Of a stretch of 64,000 nucleotides of DNA, positions 1,921 through 60,892 are shown one piece after another. The position numbers and the translations under genes were made by a program. The notes under the pieces were generated by a model. That model had not been told where the DNA came from, searched no databases, and was given only the letters and a program-made list of their open reading frames with translations. The DNA comes from Burkholderiaceae bacterium (lineage in GTDB: Bacteria; Pseudomonadota; Gammaproteobacteria; Burkholderiales; Burkholderiaceae_E). The stretch spans positions 1 to 64,000 of the forward strand of contig JAGXFG010000050.1 in assembly GCA_024637395.1 (NCBI GenBank), read 5' to 3'. The number at the start of each line of letters is the position of its first letter. Position 1 is the stretch's first letter.

Positions 1921-2325
1921 TCAGCGGGTGGTCGCGCTCAGCAGGATTTGTCCGGCGATGGCCATCTGAGCGAGGAAACCAGCCAGGAAGGAAATCGTCC
2001 GCACCCATGGAAAGGCGAAGGTATAGCCGATCAGGTGCACCACCCTGGCCCAGAAATAGGCCATCGCAGCAAAGGCCGTCACCTCACCGCTGGCCCCAGC
2101 CAGGTGGGCGACCAGGACCAGAGTCGCGAACACCACCAGGTTCTCGACCGCATTGTAGTGGGCGGCACGCATCCTCGTCGCCCAGGGAGCGAGGGGCTTG
2201 AGGTGCGGCATGTAGCCGAGCGCGTCGTTCAGTCCGCGGACCGCCACCGAATTGACGATGTAGGGCACCCAGATCAGGGCGGTCAACACGCATACCCAGG
2301 CCAGGTACTTCAACTCGATGGTCAT
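1921..2325 (-). CDS. MAPEG family membrane protein
   Basis: Small integral membrane protein of 134 residues with four predicted helices, matching the MAPEG fold (membrane-associated proteins in eicosanoid and glutathione metabolism). Visible features are an N-terminal helix (ELKYLAWVCVLTALIWVPYI), the MRAAHYNAVENLVVFATLVL segment in which the RAxxNxxEN motif is the family hallmark, and a third and fourth helix ending in FLAGFLAQMAIAGQILL. The ATG at 2325 follows a GAGGAGAG ribosome site; a longer reading frame upstream is only the antisense of dnaE2. The biochemical role of bacterial members is mostly unknown, with glutathione transferase-like activity a possibility. Divergent from dnaE2, with 159 bases between the start codons. 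Confidence 0.85.
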   Translation of the reverse strand: MTIELKYLAWVCVLTALIWVPYIVNSVAVRGLNDALGYMPHLKPLAPWATRMRAAHYNAVENLVVFATLVLVAHLAGASGEVTAFAAMAYFWARVVHLIGYTFAFPWVRTISFLAGFLAQMAIAGQILLSATTR

Positions 2326-2466
2326 TTCGCTCTCCTCTGCCCCGGGATCAGGCCCGCGGTTCCAGTGCCCGGCGCTTACCGTCGCGCACGGCACACCCCG
2401 GGGAGTGTCAGTATCGGGCAATTGCCGGCCAGCGACAATTGGAACTGCCGGCACCAAAGCAAAAGA

Positions 2467-2482
2467 CTGTATATTCATACAG
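2467..2482. promoter_or_regulatory. LexA-binding SOS box of dnaE2
   Basis: CTGTATATTCATACAG is a perfect CTGT-N8-ACAG palindrome with an AT-rich centre, the classic LexA operator. It ends two bases before the dnaE2 ATG, so bound LexA would cover the promoter core or the transcription start. The internal TATATT (2470-2475) could itself be the -10 element, though no convincing -35 is visible at the right distance. Confidence 0.9.
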
Positions 2483-2484
2483 TC

Positions 2485-5400
2485 ATGATCCCCGACTACG
2501 CCGAACTCCACTGCACCACCAATTTCTCGTTCCTGCGCGGCGCGTCGCACCCCGAGGAACTGGTCGAGCGCGCCCTCGAGCTCGGCTACTCGGCGCTCGC
2601 CATCACCGACGAATGCTCGCTCGCCGGCGTGGTTCGCGCCCACCTGCAGGCGCGCACCACCCGGCTGCCGCTGCTGATCGGGGCGAGCTTCGCGCTGTGC
2701 GACGCGTGGCCGCAGCGCCCGCGCGCGGATGGTAGCCCGGCGGACTCGCTCGCGTCGGCATCGCGCCTCATATTGCTGGCGTCCAACCGCAACGGCTACG
2801 GCAATCTGGCGGAACTGATCACCACCGCCCGCAGGCGCGCCGCCAAGGGCTCTTACCAGCTGTGGCGCAGCGACCTGGAAGCCGGCGTCGCCGACTGCCT
2901 CGCCCTGCTGGTGCCAGCGCCCGCGCTCGCCGGCGCCCTACCAGGAGAGTTCGCCGCCTTGTGCGAACAGGCGCGGTTCCTGGGCGAGCGCTTCCCCGGC
3001 AGCTGCTGGCTGGGAGCTGAGTTGCTCACCCGCGGCCACGATGCGGCGCTGCTCGACGCTTTGCGCAGCCTCGGGCGGACCAGTTCGCTGCCGCTGGTGG
3101 CAGCCGGTGACGTGCTTTTTCACGTGCGCTCGCGCAAGCGGCTGCAGGACACGCTGAGTGCGATCCGCCTGAACCGGCCACTGCGTGAGCTGGGCCGGGC
3201 GGTGGCGCCCAACGCCGAGCAGCACCTGCGCAGCCGCCTGCGGCTGGCGCGGATCTACCCGCCGGAACTGCTCGCCGAGAGTGTTGCGATCGCCGGGCGC
3301 TGCAGTTTTTCGCTCGCCGAACTGCGCTACGAGTATCCCCGCGAAATCGTCCCCGAGGGCCGCACTCCGGGCGACTGGCTGCGCCAGCTCACGCTCGAAG
3401 GGGCCGCGCTGCGCTACCCCGGCGGCACTCCGGACGCAGTCACGGCGCAGATCGGGCACGAGCTGGCGCTGATCGCCGAGCTGGGCTACGAGCCCTATTT
3501 CCTGACCGTTGCCGACATCGTCGCCTTTGCTCGCGGCCAGGGCATCCTGTGCCAGGGACGCGGCTCGGCCGCCAATTCGGCAGTCTGCTACTGCCTCGGG
3601 ATCACCGAGGTCGATCCGGCGCGGATGAACATCCTGTTCGAGCGCTTCATCAGCCGCGAGCGCGACGAACCGCCGGACATCGACGTCGATTTCGAGCACC
3701 AGCGCCGCGATGAGGTGATCGCCTACCTCTATCGCAAGTACGGTCGTCATCGGGCGGCGCTCACCGCGACGGTGATCTCCTACCGCGCTCGCTCGGCGCT
3801 GCGCGACGTCGGCAAGGCGCTGGGGATCGACGCGCAGCGCATCGACGCACTATCGCGCGCCCATCAGTGGTGGGCAGACGGGCTTGAAGAGGAGCGGCTG
3901 CGCGAAGCCGGCTTCGACCCTGAGTCGCCGGTCGTGGCGCTGTGGCTCGAACTTACCGCCCAGTTGCGCGGTTTCCCGCGCCACCTCTCGCAGCACCCGG
4001 GAGGTTTCGTGCTCGCTCGCGAGAGCCTCAGCCGGCTGGTGCCGATCGAGAACGCCGCCATGGCCGGGCGCAGCGTGATCGAGTGGGACAAGGACGATCT
4101 CGACGCGCTGGGCATCCTCAAGGTCGACGTGCTGGCGCTGGGGATGCTCTCGGCCATCCGGCGCGCGCTCGAGCGCATCGGACAACGTCGCGGCGCCGTT
4201 GCCGGCGAACCGGCCTTTCGCATCCAGGACATCCCGGCCGAGGACCCGGAAACCTACGAGATGATCTGCCGCGCCGATACCGTCGGGGCTTTCCAGATCG
4301 AATCGCGCGCCCAGATGAGCATGCTGCCGCGCCTGCAGCCGCGCTGCTTCTACGACCTGGTGATCGAGGTCGCGATCGTTCGGCCTGGGCCGATCCAGGG
4401 CGGGATGGTCCACCCCTACCTGCGCCGGCGCCAGGGACTCGAGCCGGTAGCCTACCCGCGCGAGGAAATCCGGCCGGCGTTGGCGCGCACCCTGGGGATT
4501 CCGATTTTCCAGGAACAGGTGATGCAGATCGCAATCCTCGCGGCCGGTTTCACTCCCGGTGAGGCCGACCAGCTGCGCCGGGGCATGGCGGCGTGGCGGC
4601 GCAAGGGCGGCTTGCACGTCTTTCGCGACCGCGTGGTCAACGGGATGCTGGCGCGCGGCTATGACCTGGAGTTCGCCGAGGCGATCTTCCGGCAGATCGA
4701 GGGCTTTGGCGAATACGGCTTTCCGGAAAGTCACGCGGCGAGCTTCGCATTGCTGGTCTACGTCTCGTGCTGGATCAAATGCCACGAGCCCGCCGCATTC
4801 CTGGCCGCGCTGCTCGACAGCCAGCCGATGGGCTTCTACGCCCCGGCGCAACTGGTGCGCGATGCGCGTGCGCACGGGGTCGAGGTGCGCGGGGTCGATG
4901 CACTGGTGAGCCAATGGGAGAGCACGCTGGAGGAGACCACGGTCTCGGCGCCGTGCCTGCGCGCGAGCGTCGACCATCGCCCGCAACCGGCGGTGCGCCT
5001 GGGCCTGAATCGGATTCACGGACTCTCCGAGAGCGGCGCCCGGCGGCTGCTGGCGGTCCGCGACAGCCGCCGGCGCGAGCGTGGCATAGCCGCACCGGTG
5101 CCGGGCGAACCGCTGCTCGACTTTCCCTTCGACAGCGTCGAGGACCTGGCCCGCGCCTGCTCCCTGGGGCAGTCCGACCTGCAGGCGCTGGCGCGCTCCG
5201 ACGCGCTCGCGGCGCTCGCCGGGCACCGCGTCCAGGCCAACTGGGAAGTGGCGGCGATCCGGCCGCTGCCCGAGTTGCTGGCCAACGCGCGCTTCGACGA
5301 ATCGCCGGCGGTGCTCGCGGAACCGTCCGAGGGCGAGGGCATCATCGCCGACTACCAGTCATTGGGTATCCCGATGGGCCGCCATCCAGTGGCGCTGTTG

Positions 5401-5754
5401 CGCCCGCTGCTCAAGCGCCTGCGCATTTGCCAGGCCAGCAGCCTGCGCGACTGGCGTTCCGGCCAGATCGCCCGCGCCAGCGGGCTGGTCACCCACCGCC
5501 AGCGGCCCCAGACCGCCAGCGGCACGATCTTCGTCACCATCGAGGACGAAACCGGCACGGTCAACGTGATCATCTGGCCGGCGGTGTTCGAACGCTTCCG
5601 CGCTGCGGTGCTGGGCGCCAGCCTGATGAGCGTCTACGGCATCTGGCAGCGCGACTCCGAGAGCGGAGCGGTGATGCACCTGATCGCGCGGCGCGTGGTC
5701 GACCATTCGGCGCTGCTGGGCCGGCTGGCTACCGGCAGCCGCGATTTTCGCTGA
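2485..5754 (+). CDS. dnaE2: Error-prone DNA polymerase DnaE2 (ImuC)
   Basis: C-family DNA polymerase used for SOS-induced translesion synthesis; 1089 residues, the usual DnaE2 length and shorter than replicative DnaE. Order of parts: PHP domain from residue 1 (YAELHCTTNFSFLRGASHPEEL), polymerase core with GRGSAANSAVCYCLGI, the catalytic aspartates in PPDIDVDF (D398, D400, D402), fingers and beta-binding regions, and an OB fold at about 1015-1032 (IFVTIEDETGTVNVIIWP). The start is set by conservation (MIPDYAELH); the frame is open upstream but that part overlaps the divergent MAPEG gene. No Shine-Dalgarno sequence precedes the ATG because the LexA box sits there. The usual partner genes imuA and imuB are not adjacent; the next gene, metZ, is convergent. 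Confidence 0.96.
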   Translation: MIPDYAELHCTTNFSFLRGASHPEELVERALELGYSALAITDECSLAGVVRAHLQARTTRLPLLIGASFALCDAWPQRPRADGSPADSLASASRLILLASNRNGYGNLAELITTARRRAAKGSYQLWRSDLEAGVADCLALLVPAPALAGALPGEFAALCEQARFLGERFPGSCWLGAELLTRGHDAALLDALRSLGRTSSLPLVAAGDVLFHVRSRKRLQDTLSAIRLNRPLRELGRAVAPNAEQHLRSRLRLARIYPPELLAESVAIAGRCSFSLAELRYEYPREIVPEGRTPGDWLRQLTLEGAALRYPGGTPDAVTAQIGHELALIAELGYEPYFLTVADIVAFARGQGILCQGRGSAANSAVCYCLGITEVDPARMNILFERFISRERDEPPDIDVDFEHQRRDEVIAYLYRKYGRHRAALTATVISYRARSALRDVGKALGIDAQRIDALSRAHQWWADGLEEERLREAGFDPESPVVALWLELTAQLRGFPRHLSQHPGGFVLARESLSRLVPIENAAMAGRSVIEWDKDDLDALGILKVDVLALGMLSAIRRALERIGQRRGAVAGEPAFRIQDIPAEDPETYEMICRADTVGAFQIESRAQMSMLPRLQPRCFYDLVIEVAIVRPGPIQGGMVHPYLRRRQGLEPVAYPREEIRPALARTLGIPIFQEQVMQIAILAAGFTPGEADQLRRGMAAWRRKGGLHVFRDRVVNGMLARGYDLEFAEAIFRQIEGFGEYGFPESHAASFALLVYVSCWIKCHEPAAFLAALLDSQPMGFYAPAQLVRDARAHGVEVRGVDALVSQWESTLEETTVSAPCLRASVDHRPQPAVRLGLNRIHGLSESGARRLLAVRDSRRRERGIAAPVPGEPLLDFPFDSVEDLARACSLGQSDLQALARSDALAALAGHRVQANWEVAAIRPLPELLANARFDESPAVLAEPSEGEGIIADYQSLGIPMGRHPVALLRPLLKRLRICQASSLRDWRSGQIARASGLVTHRQRPQTASGTIFVTIEDETGTVNVIIWPAVFERFRAAVLGASLMSVYGIWQRDSESGAVMHLIARRVVDHSALLGRLATGSRDFR

Positions 5755-53030: not shown

Positions 53031-54185
53031 TCAGTCGGTGGCACAGCTGCGAAAGCCGACGAAGATATCCCCGCGTTCAGGCAGGTAGAAATTCCGGAAA
53101 CGGGAATCGACCATCCCGCGGGGAGTCGCGAAAGATCCGCCACGGACCACCCGATGGTTGCCGAACCACGGCGCCGAGTACTGCTCGTAGGGGTCGGGCG
53201 AGAAACCGGGATAGGGTTCGAAGGCACTGGCGGTCCATTCCCAGACCAGGTCGCCCCATTCGAAATTGGCCTGGCTCCGGGCCGCGAGTTCCCACTCCCG
53301 CTCGTCAGGCAGGCGCCGCCCGGCCCAACGGCACCAGGCCTCGGCTTCGTGCGCGTCGACGTGCACCACCGAGGCTTCCGGATCCGGTTGCAGCCAGTGC
53401 TCGAAGCGGCGCGCGTAAACCTTGCCGCCCGCCATCCGCCAGTAGCGCGGGAGTTCCCGGCCCGCTGCCCGCAGCGCGGCATAGCCCTCGCCGCCCCACC
53501 AACGGGGCTCGCGATAGCCGCCGTCAGCGACGAAGGCCAGGAACTGCGCATTGGTGACCGGTCGTGCCGCTATCCGGTACGCAGCCACCGCGGCGGTATG
53601 CGACCATTTTTCGTTGTCGAAGCAGAAGCCCTCGCCCGGGCGGGCGCCAAACTCTGCAGTGCCGCCGGTGAGTGCCAGCTCGAGCCTCTGCCCGCCGGGG
53701 TCAACGATCGGCGCCGGGTGCAGCGGTGCGCGGTAGGACAGCGTCTGCCAGGTATAGGCGAGCGCCTCGACGTGCATCATTTCGTGGAACAGCGCGAGCC
53801 GGAAGAAATACAGTCCGGCGTCCGTCTCCGGGGCGGCGGCGAGCGCCTCCAGGCAGGCATCGAGCACCTCGCGCAGATAGGCCTCGGTCTCAGCGAGCCG
53901 CGGCAGGTCGAGGTCCCAGCGGGTTTGGTGGGCGACCTCGTTCGAATCGTAGAACCGGTCGCTGCCGGGCAGCATCGAGTCGCTGGCCAGTGAACCATCA
54001 CGGGTGCGCAGGCACCAACGTTCCTGGAACCAGGCGACGTGGCCGATTTCCCACAGCGGCGGATTGATGCTCGCCAGATAAGGTACGCGCCACTGCGCCT
54101 CGGCGAGAGTTTCGACCAGACGCAAGGTCTGGACCCGGACCGCGGCAAGTGCGGCGGCAAGTTCGGTACGGCCAGCTGAGCGCAC
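53031..54185 (-). CDS. senA: Selenoneine synthase SenA (EgtB-family)
   Basis: Non-heme iron enzyme of 384 residues predicted to join hercynine to a selenosugar (or, as EgtB, to a thiol). DinB-like N-terminal domain with the iron triad H49 (WEIGHVAWFQERW), H134 and H138 (LALFHEMMHVEALAYTWQ), matching EgtB positions, then an FGE-sulfatase-like domain (FEWGDLVWEWTASAFEPYPG) ending in SRFRNFYLPERGDIFVGFRSCA. The GTG at 54185 has GGGAG six bases upstream. The assignment to SenA over EgtB rests mainly on the divergent senB-senC pair 73 bases away; ergothioneine synthase is the alternative. Confidence 0.83.
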   Translation of the reverse strand: MRSAGRTELAAALAAVRVQTLRLVETLAEAQWRVPYLASINPPLWEIGHVAWFQERWCLRTRDGSLASDSMLPGSDRFYDSNEVAHQTRWDLDLPRLAETEAYLREVLDACLEALAAAPETDAGLYFFRLALFHEMMHVEALAYTWQTLSYRAPLHPAPIVDPGGQRLELALTGGTAEFGARPGEGFCFDNEKWSHTAAVAAYRIAARPVTNAQFLAFVADGGYREPRWWGGEGYAALRAAGRELPRYWRMAGGKVYARRFEHWLQPDPEASVVHVDAHEAEAWCRWAGRRLPDEREWELAARSQANFEWGDLVWEWTASAFEPYPGFSPDPYEQYSAPWFGNHRVVRGGSFATPRGMVDSRFRNFYLPERGDIFVGFRSCATD

Positions 54186-54258
54186 TGCTCTCTCCCTGGT
54201 CTATAGTGATGTTCCCCAGAATCTACCAGCGCTCCAGCGGCGCGCAAGTCACGACTCC

Positions 54259-55272
54259 GTGAAGCCACAAATTGCCATTATCTCCCCTGCCCTGGCCGAC
54301 GCGAACAACGGCAACTGGCAGACCGCCAGAAGGTGGGCCGGCTTCCTGCGCCATCAGGCGCGCGTCAGCGTCGCCCGCGTCTGGGACGGATCGGCCTGCT
54401 CGGCAATGATCGCGCTGCACGCGCGGCGCTCGGCGGATTCGATCGCCCGTTATGCCGCCGGCGGCAGCGGCGGCCTGGGAGTCGTGCTCACCGGCACCGA
54501 TCTCTACCGCGATATCGGTGAGGAAGCGAGCGCCCGGCGCTCGCTCGAACTGGCCGATCGGCTGGTGGTGCTGCAGCCGGCAGGTCTCGACGCCCTGGCC
54601 AGGGGCCAGCGCGCCAAGACAGTGGTCATCATCCAGTCCGCCCCGGCCCTGCTGCCTGGCAAGCCACGGCAGCGGACCTTCGACCTGCTGCTGGTTGCCC
54701 ACCTGCGTGCGGAAAAGGATCCGCTGACCGCGGCGCGCGCCCTCGCCAGGCTCGATGACCCGGCCCTGCGCCTGGTCCACATCGGCGCTACCGGGGATCG
54801 CTCAGGCGGACCGGCGGGAGGCACCGCCGACACCACCGGCGCAGACTTCGTGGCGGCCGCCGCCCGTGACTCGAGAATCGAACTTCACGGGGCGCTACCG
54901 CACGCTGCCACCAGGCAGATGATCCGGCGCGGACGAATCCTGCTGCTGCCCTCGAGGATCGAAGGTGGCGCCAATGTGATCATCGAAGCGATCAGGAGCG
55001 GGGTGCCAGTGATCGCATCGCGGATCGGCGGCTCGGTCGGGCTTCTGGGCGCTGATTATCCCGGCTTGTTCCCGGTCGGCGACGACGCGGCGCTCGCGGA
55101 ACTTATCACGCGGGCGCGGACCGAGCCGGGCTTTCTCGCGGGGCTGCGTCAGCGTTGCGAGCGGCGCAGCGCGCTCTTTGACCCTGCCCGCGAGCGGGAT
55201 GCGGTGTGCGCGCTGGCGCATAATTTGACGCTAGTGCATCGCGCAATGTCGAAGGAGCAAGACCAACAATGA
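54259..55272 (+). CDS. senB: Selenosugar synthase SenB (glycosyltransferase)
   Basis: GT-B fold glycosyltransferase of 337 residues. Family knowledge: SenB uses selenophosphate and UDP-GlcNAc to make a 1-selenosugar. Visible parts are an N-terminal domain with the conserved IISPALADANNGNWQTARRW, VVLTGTDLYRDI and a C-terminal GT4-like half with LLVAHLRAEKDPLTAARA, ELHGALPHA and the sugar-nucleotide contact LLPSRIEGGANVIIEAIRSGVPVI. The GTG at 54259 is the first start in frame; no clear ribosome site. It shares four bases with senC, so the enzyme that makes selenophosphate is made with it. Confidence 0.86.
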   Translation: MKPQIAIISPALADANNGNWQTARRWAGFLRHQARVSVARVWDGSACSAMIALHARRSADSIARYAAGGSGGLGVVLTGTDLYRDIGEEASARRSLELADRLVVLQPAGLDALARGQRAKTVVIIQSAPALLPGKPRQRTFDLLLVAHLRAEKDPLTAARALARLDDPALRLVHIGATGDRSGGPAGGTADTTGADFVAAAARDSRIELHGALPHAATRQMIRRGRILLLPSRIEGGANVIIEAIRSGVPVIASRIGGSVGLLGADYPGLFPVGDDAALAELITRARTEPGFLAGLRQRCERRSALFDPARERDAVCALAHNLTLVHRAMSKEQDQQ

Positions 55273-56330
55273 CCATCACCAGCGACTTGGCCGGCGCAGT
55301 CCGGCTGACTTCGTTCTCTCACGGCGGCGGCTGCGGCTGCAAGATCGCCCCCGGCGTGCTGTCCGAGATCCTGCGCGAGACCAAGGGCCTGCCGATCCCG
55401 CCCGAATTGCTCGTCGGCATCGAGACCGCCGACGACGCGGCGGTCTATCAGCTCAACGATGAGCAGGCCCTGATCGCGACCACCGATTTCTTCATGCCGA
55501 TCGTCGACGACCCCTACGACTTCGGGCGGATCGCCGCGGCCAATGCGCTCTCCGACGTCTACGCGATGGGCGGCAAACCGATTTTCGCGCTGGCAATCGT
55601 GGCGATGCCGATCGACCGGCTACCGCTTGAAACGATCCGCCAGGTGATCGAGGGCGGCAAGTCGATCTGCGCCGAAGCCGGTATTCCGATCGCGGGTGGA
55701 CACACCATCGATTCTGTCGAACCGATCTATGGCCTGGTCGCGCTGGGCCTGGTCCACCCCAGCAAGCTCAAGAAGAACTCGGGCGCTCGCCCCGGCGACA
55801 AGCTGGTGCTGGGCAAACCGCTCGGGGTCGGGGTCCTTTCGGCGGCGCTCAAACAGGACGAGCTGGGCCCGGAGGGTTACGCGGCACTCATTGCGAGCAC
55901 CACCCGGCTCAACGTTTCCGGTGCGGCGCTGTCAGAACTCGACGGCGTCCACGCGCTGACCGATATCACCGGGTTCGGAATTCTCGGCCACACCCTCGAG
56001 CTGTGCCGTGGCGCCCGGCTGACCGCGTCGTTGCGCATGGCCGACCTGCCGCTGCTCGACAATGTGGCCGAGCTGGCCGGGCGCGGCTTCATAACCGGTG
56101 CTTCATCGCGAAACTGGGCCGGGTACGGGGCCGATGTCGATCTTGGCAACGCCATCGGGGATACCGAGCGCGCGCTGCTTACCGATCCGCAGACTTCGGG
56201 CGGGCTGCTGGTGGCCTGCGCGCCGGAAGCTGTCGACGAGGTGCTCGCCTGCTTCGCGCGCGACGGGTTCGATCGCGCAGCGGTCATCGGTACCCTGAGT
56301 GCCGGTGCGCCACGAGTTCGCGTCGACTGA
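55269..56330 (+). CDS. senC: Selenophosphate synthetase SenC (SelD-type)
   Basis: ATP:selenide phosphotransferase giving selenophosphate; 353 residues, full length. Catalytic C22 and K25 are in SFSHGGGCGCKIAPGVL, with metal/ATP motifs ETADDAAVYQLN, TTDFFMPIVDDPYDFGRIAAANALSDVYAMGG, AGGHTIDSVEPIYG, and DITGFGILGH and LLTDPQTSGGLL. The ATG lies in ATGA with the senB stop and has AAGGAG 11 bases upstream. No selA, selB or tRNA-Sec is in the window, so its role here is read from senB, though it could also serve selenocysteine or selenouridine synthesis. Confidence 0.95.
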   Translation: MTITSDLAGAVRLTSFSHGGGCGCKIAPGVLSEILRETKGLPIPPELLVGIETADDAAVYQLNDEQALIATTDFFMPIVDDPYDFGRIAAANALSDVYAMGGKPIFALAIVAMPIDRLPLETIRQVIEGGKSICAEAGIPIAGGHTIDSVEPIYGLVALGLVHPSKLKKNSGARPGDKLVLGKPLGVGVLSAALKQDELGPEGYAALIASTTRLNVSGAALSELDGVHALTDITGFGILGHTLELCRGARLTASLRMADLPLLDNVAELAGRGFITGASSRNWAGYGADVDLGNAIGDTERALLTDPQTSGGLLVACAPEAVDEVLACFARDGFDRAAVIGTLSAGAPRVRVD

Positions 56331-56338
56331 CAACTTGC

Positions 56339-56366
56339 GGGGGCCAGCGCCAACGATCTGGCCCCC
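56339..56366. terminator. Hairpin between convergent senC and acylase genes
   Basis: GGGGGCCAG (56339-56347) and CTGGCCCCC (56358-56366) form a perfect nine-pair stem with a ten-base loop between two converging genes. No T-tract, so it may be a factor-assisted bidirectional terminator. Confidence 0.5.
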
Positions 56367-56378
56367 TGCGATCGATCG

Positions 56379-58907
56379 CTAGCGCCGCGGCAGCAGTTCC
56401 AGGCGCTCGACAGCTGAGAGCTCGACGGCCGCGGGGCTGCTGACCATCGGTAAGTACTCGACCCGCGACCACGGCAAGGCCAGATCGCCATATTGCGGTG
56501 ACAACACGTGGCCGCTCTGCCCGCTCGAAATCATGAATAGCGAACGATCGGGATTGGCAAGATCGTAGAGTGCGCGCAGGCTCGGTCCCCAGTGGTTGGC
56601 AAACGGCGCAGCCTGGTCCCAGGGGTTGTGGCGCCCGGCATTGACGCTGGCCGCGTCGCCGCCCGTGGGCACTGTCAGGTCGAAGATCCGCGCCAGCAGC
56701 GGCTGCTTGCCGAAGGGGCGATGCTCCGAAATCGCCCGGTGCGCCTTGCCCCAGCGCCACGCAGCGGGATCATCGCCATAACGCCCGACCAGTTCGGCCA
56801 GCGTCGACTCAAGGGTCGTGGCGGCCAACTCGGCGCCGGTCTCGACCGCCGGCGTGCGCACATCATCACACCACACCGCATCCTCAGGCCGAGTCAGCGC
56901 GCGCGACTGGGCGGTGTAGCGGGAACGCTGCGTGTCGAGCTGTGCGAACAGGTCCGCGCCCACCTCGTCGACGAACATCGCCTTGCGCAGCCGATCGATC
57001 CAGGCGAGCGCAATCAGGGGCTCCGGCCGCTCGGGAGCCATCCAGTTGGCGCCTCGCTTGCCCTCCGACTCCCAGGCCCGGAGCAGCGCCATCGCGCGGC
57101 GCCCGAGGTCGCTGCGCCCCTCGGTCTTGAGCAGCAGCGGCAAGATCTCGGCGACCGTGCCCGAGGCGACGTCAGCCTGGATCGCCGCGAAGCTCGCCAG
57201 GTCGTGGCGCGGCTTCTCGGCGAGCAGTTTCTGGATGCGATCGTAGCGCTCCGGCCGCGAAAACTCGGCACCGATGAAGGCCTGCGGGTCGGCCCCGACC
57301 ATCTTCTGGTTGGCGGTGACGATCGCGCCGTTGGCTGGCTGCACCACGCGCGGCAACTGCTCCCACGCCAGGTAGCCATCCCAGTCATAGTTCGCGTCCC
57401 AGCCCGGGGCCGGTGCCAGGCCGTGGAGCAGGTTGCCGGGCTTGCGCACCGGCACCCGCCCGGGCGCGACCAGCGCGACGGTTCCGTCACGGTCAGCGAA
57501 AACGATGTTCTGTTCCGGCGCATGGAAGTCGTGCAACGCGGTCTCGAACTCGGCCCAGTCACGCGCGCGGTTCATTCCGATGCCGGCGCGGATCGTGCGA
57601 TCCCCGGGCTCCAGCGCCGTCCAGCGCAGCGCCAGCACATAGCCGGCGTCCTGCCCGGCTGCCGTGAGCGCCTGCTGCGCCACGGGCAGCGCGTCCGAGA
57701 TCACCGGTCCGTGGCGGGTGCTGCGCACCGTCAGCTGCACGTCGCCCTGGCCGCGCACCACGATGGTCTCGCTGCGGGTCTCGAAGCGCGCCCAGCCCTC
57801 GGGGGTGCGGTAGCGGCCGGCGTCAGCCGGATCGACCCGCTCGAGGTAGAGATCCTCACTATCGGGGCTGGTATTGGTGAACCCCCAGGCGGTGCGCTCG
57901 GTGCGCCCGAGCACCACGTAGGGCAATCCCGGCAGGGTCGCGCCGATCACCTCGAGTCCCGGCGCGGAAAGCTGGGCCAGGTACCAGAGCGCCGGAGCAC
58001 CGAGCGCCAGATGGGGGTCGTTGGCCAGCAGCGCTCCGCCGGTGAGACTGCGCGACGCGTCGACCACCCAGTTGTTGGAACCGATGCCATCGTTGCCGGC
58101 CGACGGGAACGCCGCCTGCAGCGTGGCGTGCAGTTCTCCGCTGAGGGCCGCAACCGCTCCCAGCGCATCCCCGGCGGTCGCTGCCATTTTCGTGGGATCG
58201 GCATAGACCGTGTCGCGCTCGGGCAGCGCCAGCACTGGATCGGTGTCAAGCAGCCACGACAGCCGCTCCGACCCGAGTCGTGACCAGAGGGCCGCACGCA
58301 GCAACTCGGTGTTGAGGTTAGCCGACAGGTCCCAGGCCATCATCGTGGCCCAGCCAATCGCGTCCACCGGTTCCCACTGGCCGGGTTTGACTCCCAGGAT
58401 CAGGAATTCCGGCGAGAGCTTCCAGGGCTTCGCGCTGACCTCTTCGATGCCGGCATTAATGCCATCGACATATGCCTGGAGTATTGCGCGGGTCGACTGA
58501 TCGAGTTCGGCCCAGATCTCAGCCGCGTTGCGCCGCACTCCGAGCACGCGCAGCACCCGGTCGGTAGTGAGCGCCGCCGGCCCGAGCACCTCGGCGAGAC
58601 GGCCAGCGACGATCCGGCGGTTCATCTCCAGTTGCCACAGGCGGTCTGTGGCATGAGCGTGCCCCAGCGCGAAGAAGGCGTCGAGTTCGTTGGCAGCGCG
58701 GATGTGAACGATCCCGTGAGCATCGCGCAGCACCTGCACCGGCGCCCGCAGCCCGGCCAGTTCGACGCTGCCGGAACGATCGGGCAGCGTCACCGCCCGG
58801 TAGCCAACCAGCGCCACCACCACCAGCAGCGCCGCGCCCACCAACAGGAGTAACGTCCACCGCAGGGTGGTCACGATCATCGAGCGCCGCCGGCGAGCCT
58901 TGACCAT
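56379..58907 (-). CDS. Penicillin-acylase-family Ntn hydrolase
   Basis: Self-processing periplasmic amidohydrolase of 842 residues. A basic N-terminus and one membrane helix (TLRWTLLLLVGAALLVVVALVGY) suggest an anchor. Alpha-chain motifs are GIVHIRAANELDAFFALGHAHATDRLWQLE; the autoprocessing nucleophile is S277 in GNDGIGSNNWVV. NDPHLALGAPALWYLAQLSAPG and RPFGKQPLLARIFDLTVPTGGDAASVNAG are typical. Relatives cleave N-acylated amino acids, homoserine lactones or beta-lactam side chains; the substrate here is unknown. It follows egtD by 27 bases and is likely co-transcribed. Confidence 0.88.
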   Translation of the reverse strand: MVKARRRRSMIVTTLRWTLLLLVGAALLVVVALVGYRAVTLPDRSGSVELAGLRAPVQVLRDAHGIVHIRAANELDAFFALGHAHATDRLWQLEMNRRIVAGRLAEVLGPAALTTDRVLRVLGVRRNAAEIWAELDQSTRAILQAYVDGINAGIEEVSAKPWKLSPEFLILGVKPGQWEPVDAIGWATMMAWDLSANLNTELLRAALWSRLGSERLSWLLDTDPVLALPERDTVYADPTKMAATAGDALGAVAALSGELHATLQAAFPSAGNDGIGSNNWVVDASRSLTGGALLANDPHLALGAPALWYLAQLSAPGLEVIGATLPGLPYVVLGRTERTAWGFTNTSPDSEDLYLERVDPADAGRYRTPEGWARFETRSETIVVRGQGDVQLTVRSTRHGPVISDALPVAQQALTAAGQDAGYVLALRWTALEPGDRTIRAGIGMNRARDWAEFETALHDFHAPEQNIVFADRDGTVALVAPGRVPVRKPGNLLHGLAPAPGWDANYDWDGYLAWEQLPRVVQPANGAIVTANQKMVGADPQAFIGAEFSRPERYDRIQKLLAEKPRHDLASFAAIQADVASGTVAEILPLLLKTEGRSDLGRRAMALLRAWESEGKRGANWMAPERPEPLIALAWIDRLRKAMFVDEVGADLFAQLDTQRSRYTAQSRALTRPEDAVWCDDVRTPAVETGAELAATTLESTLAELVGRYGDDPAAWRWGKAHRAISEHRPFGKQPLLARIFDLTVPTGGDAASVNAGRHNPWDQAAPFANHWGPSLRALYDLANPDRSLFMISSGQSGHVLSPQYGDLALPWSRVEYLPMVSSPAAVELSAVERLELLPRR

Positions 58908-58934
58908 CTTCCGTCCCCTGGTAATGGACCGCCT

Positions 58935-59876
58935 TCAGGCGGCCTGCGCGAATATCACCGCGAACCAGCGCCGCGGGTCGGTCCAGCAACGCACATTGCT
59001 CCAGCCGGCAATCCTCAGCAACTCGATGAAGTCCTTCTCCCGGTACTTGTAGGAGTTCTCGGTGTGAATCCGTTCGCCGGCGCGAAACTGCCGTGCCCCG
59101 CCCGGCCAGGCAACAGTGACCTGGCGCAGCGCTTCAAGGTGCATCTCGATGCGGCTCCGGACAGGATCGAACAGCGCGAGGTGACGCCAGTCGCCGAGCG
59201 AGAAGTCGGCGCCCAGCAGGCGATTGGCGTGCAACAGCACATTGCGGTTGAAAGCGGCGGTCACCCCCAGCGCGTCGTCATAGGCTGCCACCAGCGTCGC
59301 CGGATCCTTGACCAGATCGACCCCGATCAGCAATTGTCCATCGGCGTCGGCGTTGGCGCGCAAGCGGGAAAGAAAGGTGCGCGCATCCTCGGGGGCGAAG
59401 TTCCCGATGCTCGAGCCGGGATAGAGGAACAGGCGAGCGTCGCGCGGCACTTCGGCGGGCAGCGACCAGTCGGTCGTGAGATCGCAGCCGTAACCATTTA
59501 TCACGAGAGCTGGATGCTCGCGCCTGAGGCGTGCCAGCGAGGCATCGAGAAAGTCCGCCGAAATGTCCAGTGCCACATAACGCCGGGGCTGTAACCGGGC
59601 GAAGAGATGTTCGGCCTTGACGCAATCACCGGCACCCAGGTCGATCAGCGTGCGCCCGGCACCGGCCAGACTCGCCAGTTCGTCGCAGCATCCCGCCAGC
59701 ACCTCGCGTTCGGTGCGCGTCGGGTAATACTCCTCGAGTTGGCAGATCGCCGCGAACAGCGCCGATCCGAGCCGATCGTAGAAGAATTTCGGCGCGATTT
59801 GCGCCGCCGCTTGCGCCAGTCCGGCAGCGAGTTCGCGCCGCTGATCGTCCGGCCAGGAAGATTCCAGTTCCTGCAT
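58935..59876 (-). CDS. egtD: Histidine N-alpha-methyltransferase EgtD
   Basis: SAM-dependent trimethylation of histidine to hercynine; 313 residues. Matches the EgtD family: PKFFYDRLGSALFAAICQLEEYYPTRTE, the SAM-binding TLIDLGAGDCVKAEHL, FLYPGSSIGNFAPEDARTFL and RVDLVKDP-like GVDLVKDPATLVAAYDD. C-terminal HTENSYKYREKDFIELL also fits. It provides the hercynine that senA would use. It is divergent from the putative selenium ABC transporter with 122 bases between starts, and heads an operon with the acylase. Confidence 0.94.
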   Translation of the reverse strand: MQELESSWPDDQRRELAAGLAQAAAQIAPKFFYDRLGSALFAAICQLEEYYPTRTEREVLAGCCDELASLAGAGRTLIDLGAGDCVKAEHLFARLQPRRYVALDISADFLDASLARLRREHPALVINGYGCDLTTDWSLPAEVPRDARLFLYPGSSIGNFAPEDARTFLSRLRANADADGQLLIGVDLVKDPATLVAAYDDALGVTAAFNRNVLLHANRLLGADFSLGDWRHLALFDPVRSRIEMHLEALRQVTVAWPGGARQFRAGERIHTENSYKYREKDFIELLRIAGWSNVRCWTDPRRWFAVIFAQAA

Positions 59877-59952
59877 CGTGATCGTTGGCCCCCACTCGCA
59901 CGCTTCACCACAATCAAGACCTCGTCGCCGACGCGGTCGCCATCACCTCCAA

Positions 59953-59971
59953 TTATCATATTAGCTTATCA
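59953..59971. promoter_or_regulatory. AT-rich direct repeat in the egtD/transporter intergenic region
   Basis: TTATCA at 59953-59958 and again at 59966-59971, 13 bases apart, in a conspicuously AT-rich patch. A CATACT at 59974-59979 may be the -10 of the transporter operon, so the repeat would sit on the promoter. A regulator site is inferred only. Confidence 0.35.
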
Positions 59972-59998
59972 GGCATACTTCCCCAGGAGGGTCTTCAG

Positions 59999-60892
59999 AT
60001 GCGCTTCCGAATCAATTGCCACGTCAGAGCATTCGCCGGATTGGTCGGAACCGCGCTGCACGTGCTCACGCTTGCCGCCGCGTTGACGCTGGCGCCGCAG
60101 GCCTCGGCCCAATCAGTCCTCCGGGTCACCGCCATTCCTGACGAGTCGCCGACCGAGCTGCAACGCAAGTTCAAGCCGCTCGGCACCTACCTCGAGAAGG
60201 CCGTGGGCATGCGGGTCGAATTCATCCCGGTCACCGACTACGCCGCGGCCGTCGAAGCGCTGGTCAACCGCAAGGTCGAATTGGCCTGGTTTGGCGGCTT
60301 CACCTTCGTGCAGGCGCGGAACCGCTCCAACGATGCAGTAATACCGCTGGTGCAGCGGGTCGAGGACGAGAAATTCCGCTCGGTGTTCGTCACCGCCGAT
60401 CCGTCGATCAAGCGCCTCGAGGACCTGAAGGGGAAGTCGCTGAGTTTCGGCTCGCCATCGTCGACATCCGGCCACCTGATGCCGCGCTCCTACCTGCTCC
60501 AGGCCGGCATCGACCCCGATCAGGATCTGCGAGTGTCGTTTTCCGGCGCCCATGACGCGACCGCGCTGGCGGTCGCCGGCGGCAAAGTCGCCGCTGGCGC
60601 ACTCAACATCTCGGTGTGGGAAAAACTGCTCGCTGATCACCGGATCGACACCTCGAGGGTGCACGTATTCTTTACGACGCCGCCCTATCACGACTACAAC
60701 TGGACTGTGCATCGGGATCTGGACCCGGTGGTGCGCAAGAAATTGCGCGACGCCTTCCTGGCGCTTTCGCCAGACACCCCGCAGGGCAGCGAAATTCTAG
60801 CCATGCAGCGGGCGACCCGCTTCGTGCCGACTCGCCCCGAGAATTACGCGGTCATCGAAACCGCGGCCCGCAGCGCGGGCTTGCTAAAGTAG
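59999..60892 (+). CDS. PhnD-like binding protein of a putative selenium-oxyanion ABC transporter
   Basis: Periplasmic binding protein of 297 residues with a signal peptide ending near ASAQSVLRV. Phosphonate-type type II binding fold: AIPDESPTELQRKFKPLGTYLEKA, VNRKVELAWFGGFTFVQAR, GKSLSFGSPSSTSGHLMPRSYLL and FSGAHDATALAVAGGKVAAGAL. AGGAGG lies nine bases before the ATG at 59999. I recall a clade of such proteins being called putative selenate binders because they co-occur with selD; that clade and this location support a selenium substrate. Phosphonate, phosphite or another oxyanion remain possible. Confidence 0.75.
   Translation: MRFRINCHVRAFAGLVGTALHVLTLAAALTLAPQASAQSVLRVTAIPDESPTELQRKFKPLGTYLEKAVGMRVEFIPVTDYAAAVEALVNRKVELAWFGGFTFVQARNRSNDAVIPLVQRVEDEKFRSVFVTADPSIKRLEDLKGKSLSFGSPSSTSGHLMPRSYLLQAGIDPDQDLRVSFSGAHDATALAVAGGKVAAGALNISVWEKLLADHRIDTSRVHVFFTTPPYHDYNWTVHRDLDPVVRKKLRDAFLALSPDTPQGSEILAMQRATRFVPTRPENYAVIETAARSAGLLK

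Follow-up and report, generated by a model that had tools for sequence, protein, structure and literature searches.

When transcribed from pRM, the cI gene of phage lambda has a repressor-controlled promoter whose −10 element lies ~6 nt before the AUG, and its mRNA is leaderless. It differs from the dnaE2 gene described here in having another repressor, in its positive autoregulation and in not being an SOS gene. Within the LexA system, the accessible text of one study describes Mycobacterium tuberculosis LexA as made from a leaderless message in which the transcription start is the translation start (PMC2897130). Compared on start sites, that lexA gene is like the present locus in being a leaderless gene of the LexA system and unlike it in belonging to an Actinobacterium; by analogy, the predicted dnaE2 layout is a variant of such known leaderless genes.

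Burkholderia cenocepacia belongs to the same order as the organism studied here. According to the accessible part of a transcription start site study, transcription starts at the start codon in 72 of its genes and within 10 nt of it in another 42, 24 of these leaderless or near-leaderless transcripts are tRNAs, and the leaderless genes have a TA-rich motif just upstream; the terms ‘SOS’, ‘LexA’, ‘imuA’ and ‘dnaE2’ occur zero times in its main text (PMC4603805). As for LexA control, the accessible portions of two further sources state that LexA boxes as a rule lie near the promoter or over it and that imuA-imuB-dnaE2 is persistently LexA-controlled (PMC3323433), and describe split forms in which dnaE2 lies apart from imuAB (PMC8072749). 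The present locus resembles the LexA-repressed imuA-imuB-dnaE2 (ImuC) cassette in that dnaE2 has its own LexA box, with lexA and imuA together elsewhere under another box, and differs in that the box lies 2 nt from the dnaE2 ATG, with no Shine-Dalgarno sequence and a predicted −10 element in the operator. Among the open-access papers on LexA and leaderless genes, no title or abstract opening described a LexA operator touching a proteobacterial start codon.

A LexA operator abuts the dnaE2 start codon

The window is the whole 64-kb stretch of DNA that was analysed; its genome (G000) and three genus mates (G001, G002 and G003) are the four genus members compared below. The dnaE2 gene (error-prone DNA polymerase, DnaE2/ImuC) occupies positions 2485..5754 of the plus strand and encodes 1089 aa. 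It matches NCBIfam PRK05672 with 1443 bits (cut-off 939), aligned from residue 2 to the end, and scores 559 bits against PRK05673 (replicative DnaE), which places it in the DnaE2 subfamily as a full-length member. Relatives found by DnaE2 similarity were mostly Burkholderiales records.

The sequence-only reading had claimed a LexA box 2 nt before this gene, and the box was found as described, the core operator CTGTATATTCATACAG (2467..2482, plus strand) being an exact CTGT-N8-ACAG that is followed by TC and then by the ATG at 2485-2487. The core sits in a 20-bp extended palindrome, GACTGTAT-ATTC-ATACAGTC (2465..2484, plus strand), which abuts the ATG directly. It is the single exact CTGT-N8-ACAG in the window; at up to one mismatch the core motif gave nine matches there, below the chance expectation of 12.9, and the 8-base core is thus little proof by itself. 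The extended motif TACTGTATNNNNATACAGTA, allowing up to three mismatches, occurs at three places in the 3.46-Mb genome, before lexA-imuA, dnaE2 (two mismatches) and uvrD, and its reversed control at none. A LexA gene is present in the genome (TIGR00498, 237 bits), and lexA and recA carry the same motif or one with a single mismatch. The CTGT-N8-ACAG operator makes dnaE2 a candidate member of the LexA regulon, with the promoter there being a prediction.

The spacing from box through TC to ATG is fixed in all four genus members, as is the block AAAGACTGTATATT....CAGTCATG, which keeps its position relative to the ATG without indels, and the hexamer TATATT is invariant. The box itself is kept in G001 and G003 and has one anchor mismatch in G002, where its right arm is partly lost and TATATT is retained. 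Upstream of the block the sequence is variable, and the distance from a shared GCGACAA to the ATG in G002 exceeds that in the window by 14 nt (hand count). The dnaE2 box is thereby confirmed as a genuine feature that is conserved in the genus.

The gene stands alone between a divergent MAPEG-family membrane protein gene (1921..2328, minus strand; Pfam PF01124, 4.9e-21) and a convergent metZ-like gene. Given that LexA boxes are palindromes and that the MAPEG gene starts ~140 nt off on the other strand, the box could in principle serve mainly that gene and be close to dnaE2 by coincidence. We consider this extremely improbable: the distance of the box is constant to the dnaE2 ATG and not to the MAPEG promoter block, a box lies within 150 nt before dnaE2 in 34 of 51 family loci, and the MAPEG gene has a promoter-like block of its own. 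This block (2410..2438, minus strand), recognised by eye, consists of TTGTCG (2438-2433), a 17-nt spacer and GATACT (2415-2410), is for the most part kept in the alignment of the genus, though less well in G002, and probably serves the MAPEG gene and not dnaE2.

The dnaE2 gene does not share an operon with imuA here, imuA being on another contig of this draft genome, beside lexA. The lexA box is on the dnaE2 contig in G001 and G002, ~13 kb from dnaE2, so that on both counts dnaE2 lies outside the lexA-imuA operon.

Elsewhere in the window, at 53031-60892, we observed a selenoneine/ergothioneine-type cluster, made up of SenA (53031-54185, minus strand), a glycosyltransferase (54259-55272, plus strand), SelD (55269-56330, plus strand), a histidine-specific methyltransferase (58935-59876, minus strand) and a putative selenate ABC transporter binding protein (59885-60892, plus strand).

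The ATG next to the box is the start of dnaE2

Upstream of the ATG the reading frame is open in the window, G001 and G003. In G002 an in-frame TGA lies inside the box, so no upstream start is usable there and translation must begin at the ATG. Downstream, the next in-frame start is at residue 49 in G000 (GTG), G002 and G003, and at residue 27 in G001. Use of a downstream start had been named beforehand as an outcome that would overturn the leaderless reading, and this objection falls away, since such a start would cost the protein its conserved N-terminus, residue 49 being past the conserved YAELHC region. The in-box stop of G002 and the loss of conserved sequence from downstream starts rule out an upstream or alternative start, and establish the ATG as the start directly in G002 and by homology in the other genus members.

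A predicted −10 element lies inside the operator

Scored with a simple −10 matrix, the best −10 hexamer in all four genus members is TATATT (2470..2475, plus strand), which lies inside the operator and reaches 10.1 bits by itself, with the next best at 5.8 or less. When −10 and −35 scores are combined, TATATT leads in G000 (8.2), G001 and G003 and is third in G002 (5.0), where the best is CATGAT over the ATG (8.1). The best paired −35 differs among the four genus genomes, none of which has a convincing −35 for dnaE2, and a consensus scan of 2300-2600 found no promoter; a sigma-70 consensus promoter upstream of dnaE2 was dropped as a candidate on that scan.

The distance from the end of TATATT to the ATG is 9 nt in each of the four genus members, and a transcript beginning 6-10 nt past the last base of the hexamer would start at 2481..2485 (plus strand), with a predicted leader of 0-4 nt. 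Because the hexamer is 9 nt from the ATG, as against 5-7 nt at uvrD (see below), a leader of 3-4 nt is likelier than one of exactly zero. The locus has sequence features of the leaderless class, with a short, fixed distance from the predicted −10 to the ATG in place of a Shine-Dalgarno sequence (energy +0.7), although no −35 supports it, and the start codon is ATG in all five family dnaE2 loci with a gap of 2 nt or less. The LexA consensus core resembles a −10 element by nature and TATATT could therefore be incidental, so we treat it as support and not as proof.

Transcription could also begin within the box, ~10 nt before the ATG, from AAGACT (−22 to −17) as the −10 and TTGGAA as the −35, in which case the mRNA would keep half of the operator as a short leader without a Shine-Dalgarno sequence. 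This pair totals 7.3 in G000, close to the 8.2 of TATATT, and 5.3 in G003, and many relatives, on reading, show TATACT or GATACT overlapping the box in its left arm, which favours such a leader. AAGACT is nevertheless a poor −10 by itself (2.5 bits in G000 against 10.1 for TATATT) and the pair falls outside the best five in G001 and G002, and we consider this arrangement unlikely.

Weak Shine-Dalgarno sequences are a family habit of dnaE2

That dnaE2 has no ribosome site, as had been claimed from the sequence, holds in the comparison with its neighbours: its anti-Shine-Dalgarno duplex, at +0.7 kcal/mol, is the weakest of 22 window genes, and 12 of the other 21 have an energy of −5.8 or stronger. 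For these controls the starts were taken from profile alignments with the best-scoring candidate per gene, and folC was excluded because it had no candidate in range.

Across the family, a readable dnaE2 5' end was available for 51 of 61 genomes, the 5' end of the other ten being truncated, missing or outside the retrieved sequence; four of the 51 have no assignable start codon, and the genomes are not independent, as several come from one genus. In the 34 box-bearing loci among these the gap ranges between 1 and 118 nt. It is 1-2 nt in five, namely the four genus members and G054 (G002 and G054 each with one anchor mismatch), and 10-118 nt, measured to the assigned start, in the other 29. In one further genome, G047, an in-frame ATG lies 1 nt from the box, yet the locus was counted at the nearer GTG (gap 34).

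A weak Shine-Dalgarno sequence (energy above −4) is found in 29 of the 34 box-bearing loci, with all five exceptions in genus g16, and leaderless genes are an ordinary minority class in Burkholderia, as given in the accessible part of PMC4603805; on these two grounds the suggestion that dnaE2 translation is unusual calls for correction. Among the 16 dnaE2 genes with a box 30-118 nt away, 12 are weak by the same threshold (two of these without an assigned start). As orthologues with a distant box thus mostly have no Shine-Dalgarno sequence either, the idea that the box displaced that of dnaE2 is ruled out, and a start without a Shine-Dalgarno sequence is, on these sequence counts, a family habit of dnaE2 and not a consequence of the box. 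For the same reason its absence is no proof of leaderlessness.

These 12 of 16 genes indicate that dnaE2 can evidently start without a good Shine-Dalgarno sequence, which would also suit a long leader, that is, a promoter well upstream, a leader with the whole operator in it and translation of dnaE2 in an otherwise accessible region. We judge such a leader very unlikely, as the consensus scan found no upstream promoter, the upstream spacing is not conserved, and the operator, once transcribed, would fold into an 8-bp hairpin immediately next to the AUG in three of the four genomes (−8.1 kcal/mol in G000, G001 and G003). In G002 the hairpin reaches merely −3.3 kcal/mol, which weakens it as a candidate conserved element; Rfam at gathering threshold returned nothing but a tRNA in the window.

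The hairpin raises the further idea that the operator is also a translation barrier. Only RNA starting in the derepressed operator would expose a 5'-terminal AUG, and in any read-through RNA the hairpin (−8.1 kcal/mol) would block the AUG. We hold this double lock to be doubtful, with the weak hairpin of G002 speaking against it. If it were true, leaky synthesis of a mutagenic polymerase would be prevented in transcription as well as in translation, and DnaE2 and UvrD would rise together when damage moved the ribosome pool towards leaderless initiation.

The fused layout recurs at other genes

The pattern box-N0-3-ATG has 18 matches in 15 of 74 family genomes, and its reversed control has none. 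Ten of the 18 begin a plausible gene (by reading): four dnaE2, four uvrD, one integron integrase and one 166-aa open reading frame (ORF). Not every match can be taken as a gene start, as each of the other eight boxes either belongs to a different start or strand (lexA, integrase, dnaE2) or has nothing but short ORFs after it. Order-wide, the fused pattern occurs in 93 of 399 genomes and a reversed-control match in 12 (counted by eye). Of the 26 new loci that were read, just two clearly open an SOS gene: a lexA gene in G066 and, in G097, an ORF resembling ImuA, identities that were assigned by reading and not by a protein-family scan. The fused box-ATG layout is rare but recurring.

The 166-aa ORF (L270; G022:C10:8443-8462, minus strand) starts 1 nt after the LexA-like box CTGTATATATTTACAG. 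A different palindrome, of the CTGTTATATAKAACAG type, lies 1-2 nt before an ATG in six genomes of family f27 (L300, L301 and four other places), and in L300 and L301 this ATG opens a 477-aa GntR-like ORF (named by eye). This palindrome is perhaps the site of another regulator and not of LexA.

Separately, in G013, G028, G041 and G039 the gene immediately upstream of dnaE2, in the same orientation, codes for an integron integrase (TIGR02249, 437-451 bits); it either overlaps dnaE2 by 4 nt or is separated from it by 9 nt. The integrase loci are L016:4635-5720(-), L020:4915-6117(-), L034:4891-6084(-) and L025:476-1498(+), and a shortened integrase is at L063/L060:228-785(-). Ahead of the integrase domain there is a LexA box in G013, G028 and G041, that of G013 being 2 nt from an integrase ATG, and in G039 no LexA box was found before the integrase in the stretch examined. 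The arrangement suggests putative SOS-controlled operons that would join cassette shuffling and mutagenesis.

In uvrD the box and the predicted −10 element move together

The uvrD gene of the window genome (locus L255, C23, minus strand) has the start region CTGTGTAAAATTACAG-G-ATG, so that the box ends 1 nt before the ATG. This box is identical in G001 and has one base changed in G002. Our uvrD counts cover 44 of the 61 family genomes (the other uvrD loci being among L209-L256); G003 contributes no uvrD 5' end, and L253 is without a match.

A TANWAT hexamer (TAGAAT, TAAAAT or TACAAT) ends 5-7 nt before the start in 22 of the 44 genes, compared with 24 of 49,654 background positions (0.05%). 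These 22 represent six of 13 genera, and the other 22 of the 44 are without leaderless spacing. In 17 of the TANWAT-type genes there is no LexA box, leaving a plain leaderless-type promoter, and in the remaining five (G000, G001, G002, G017 and G053) TAAAAT is contained in a LexA box whose end is 1-2 nt from the ATG. A similar arrangement is seen in G008, with distances of 8 and 3 nt, and in genus g3 the box is at a distance of 12-22 nt, six of seven boxes containing the hexamer. Judged from these positions, the box and the putative −10 of uvrD move as one unit, which makes the same reading of dnaE2 plausible, and uvrD is probably leaderless in several genera of the family, with or without a LexA box.

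Other SOS genes of the window genome have room for a leader. The lexA site is 26 nt from the GTG with GGAG between, and at recA 51 nt separate a box with one mismatch from the first ATG, GGGAG being present. At dnaE2 and uvrD the gap between box and ATG is too small for a ribosome site. With gaps of 2 nt (dnaE2), 1 nt (uvrD), 26 nt (lexA) and 51 nt (recA), one genome holds both kinds of SOS leader.

Discussion

The layout is best explained by an SOS promoter in which the LexA operator, the −10 element and the start codon of dnaE2 would be fused. LexA on 2467-2482 would cover both TATATT (2470-2475) and the start point, and so block RNA polymerase. On DNA damage, RecA would trigger the self-cleavage of LexA and transcription would begin at the right-hand end of the box (about 2481-2485), giving a dnaE2 mRNA with a leader of about 0-4 nt, whose nearly 5'-terminal AUG would be read without a Shine-Dalgarno sequence. 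We infer the transcription start point, LexA binding and leaderless translation at dnaE2 from the sequence comparisons. That the message is leaderless or nearly so, or starts inside the box, as the sequence-only reading had proposed, appears the best-supported reading, given the best −10 in the box, the block from −10 to ATG fixed in all four genus members and the precedent of uvrD; a leaderless or nearly leaderless dnaE2 message from such a fused promoter is, in our assessment, likely. The layout might also give very tight repression, as that reading had suggested.

These loci suggest a compact class of Burkholderiales SOS promoters whose operator, −10 element and start codon would form one unit, as proposed for dnaE2 and uvrD, with recA and lexA having normal leaders. 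Start-codon and SOS-box annotation should allow for sites that touch the ATG. If mapped 5' ends confirm the arrangement, leaderless initiation would serve for some SOS proteins but not for others, and this would provide a direct test of the effect of DNA damage on leaderless translation.
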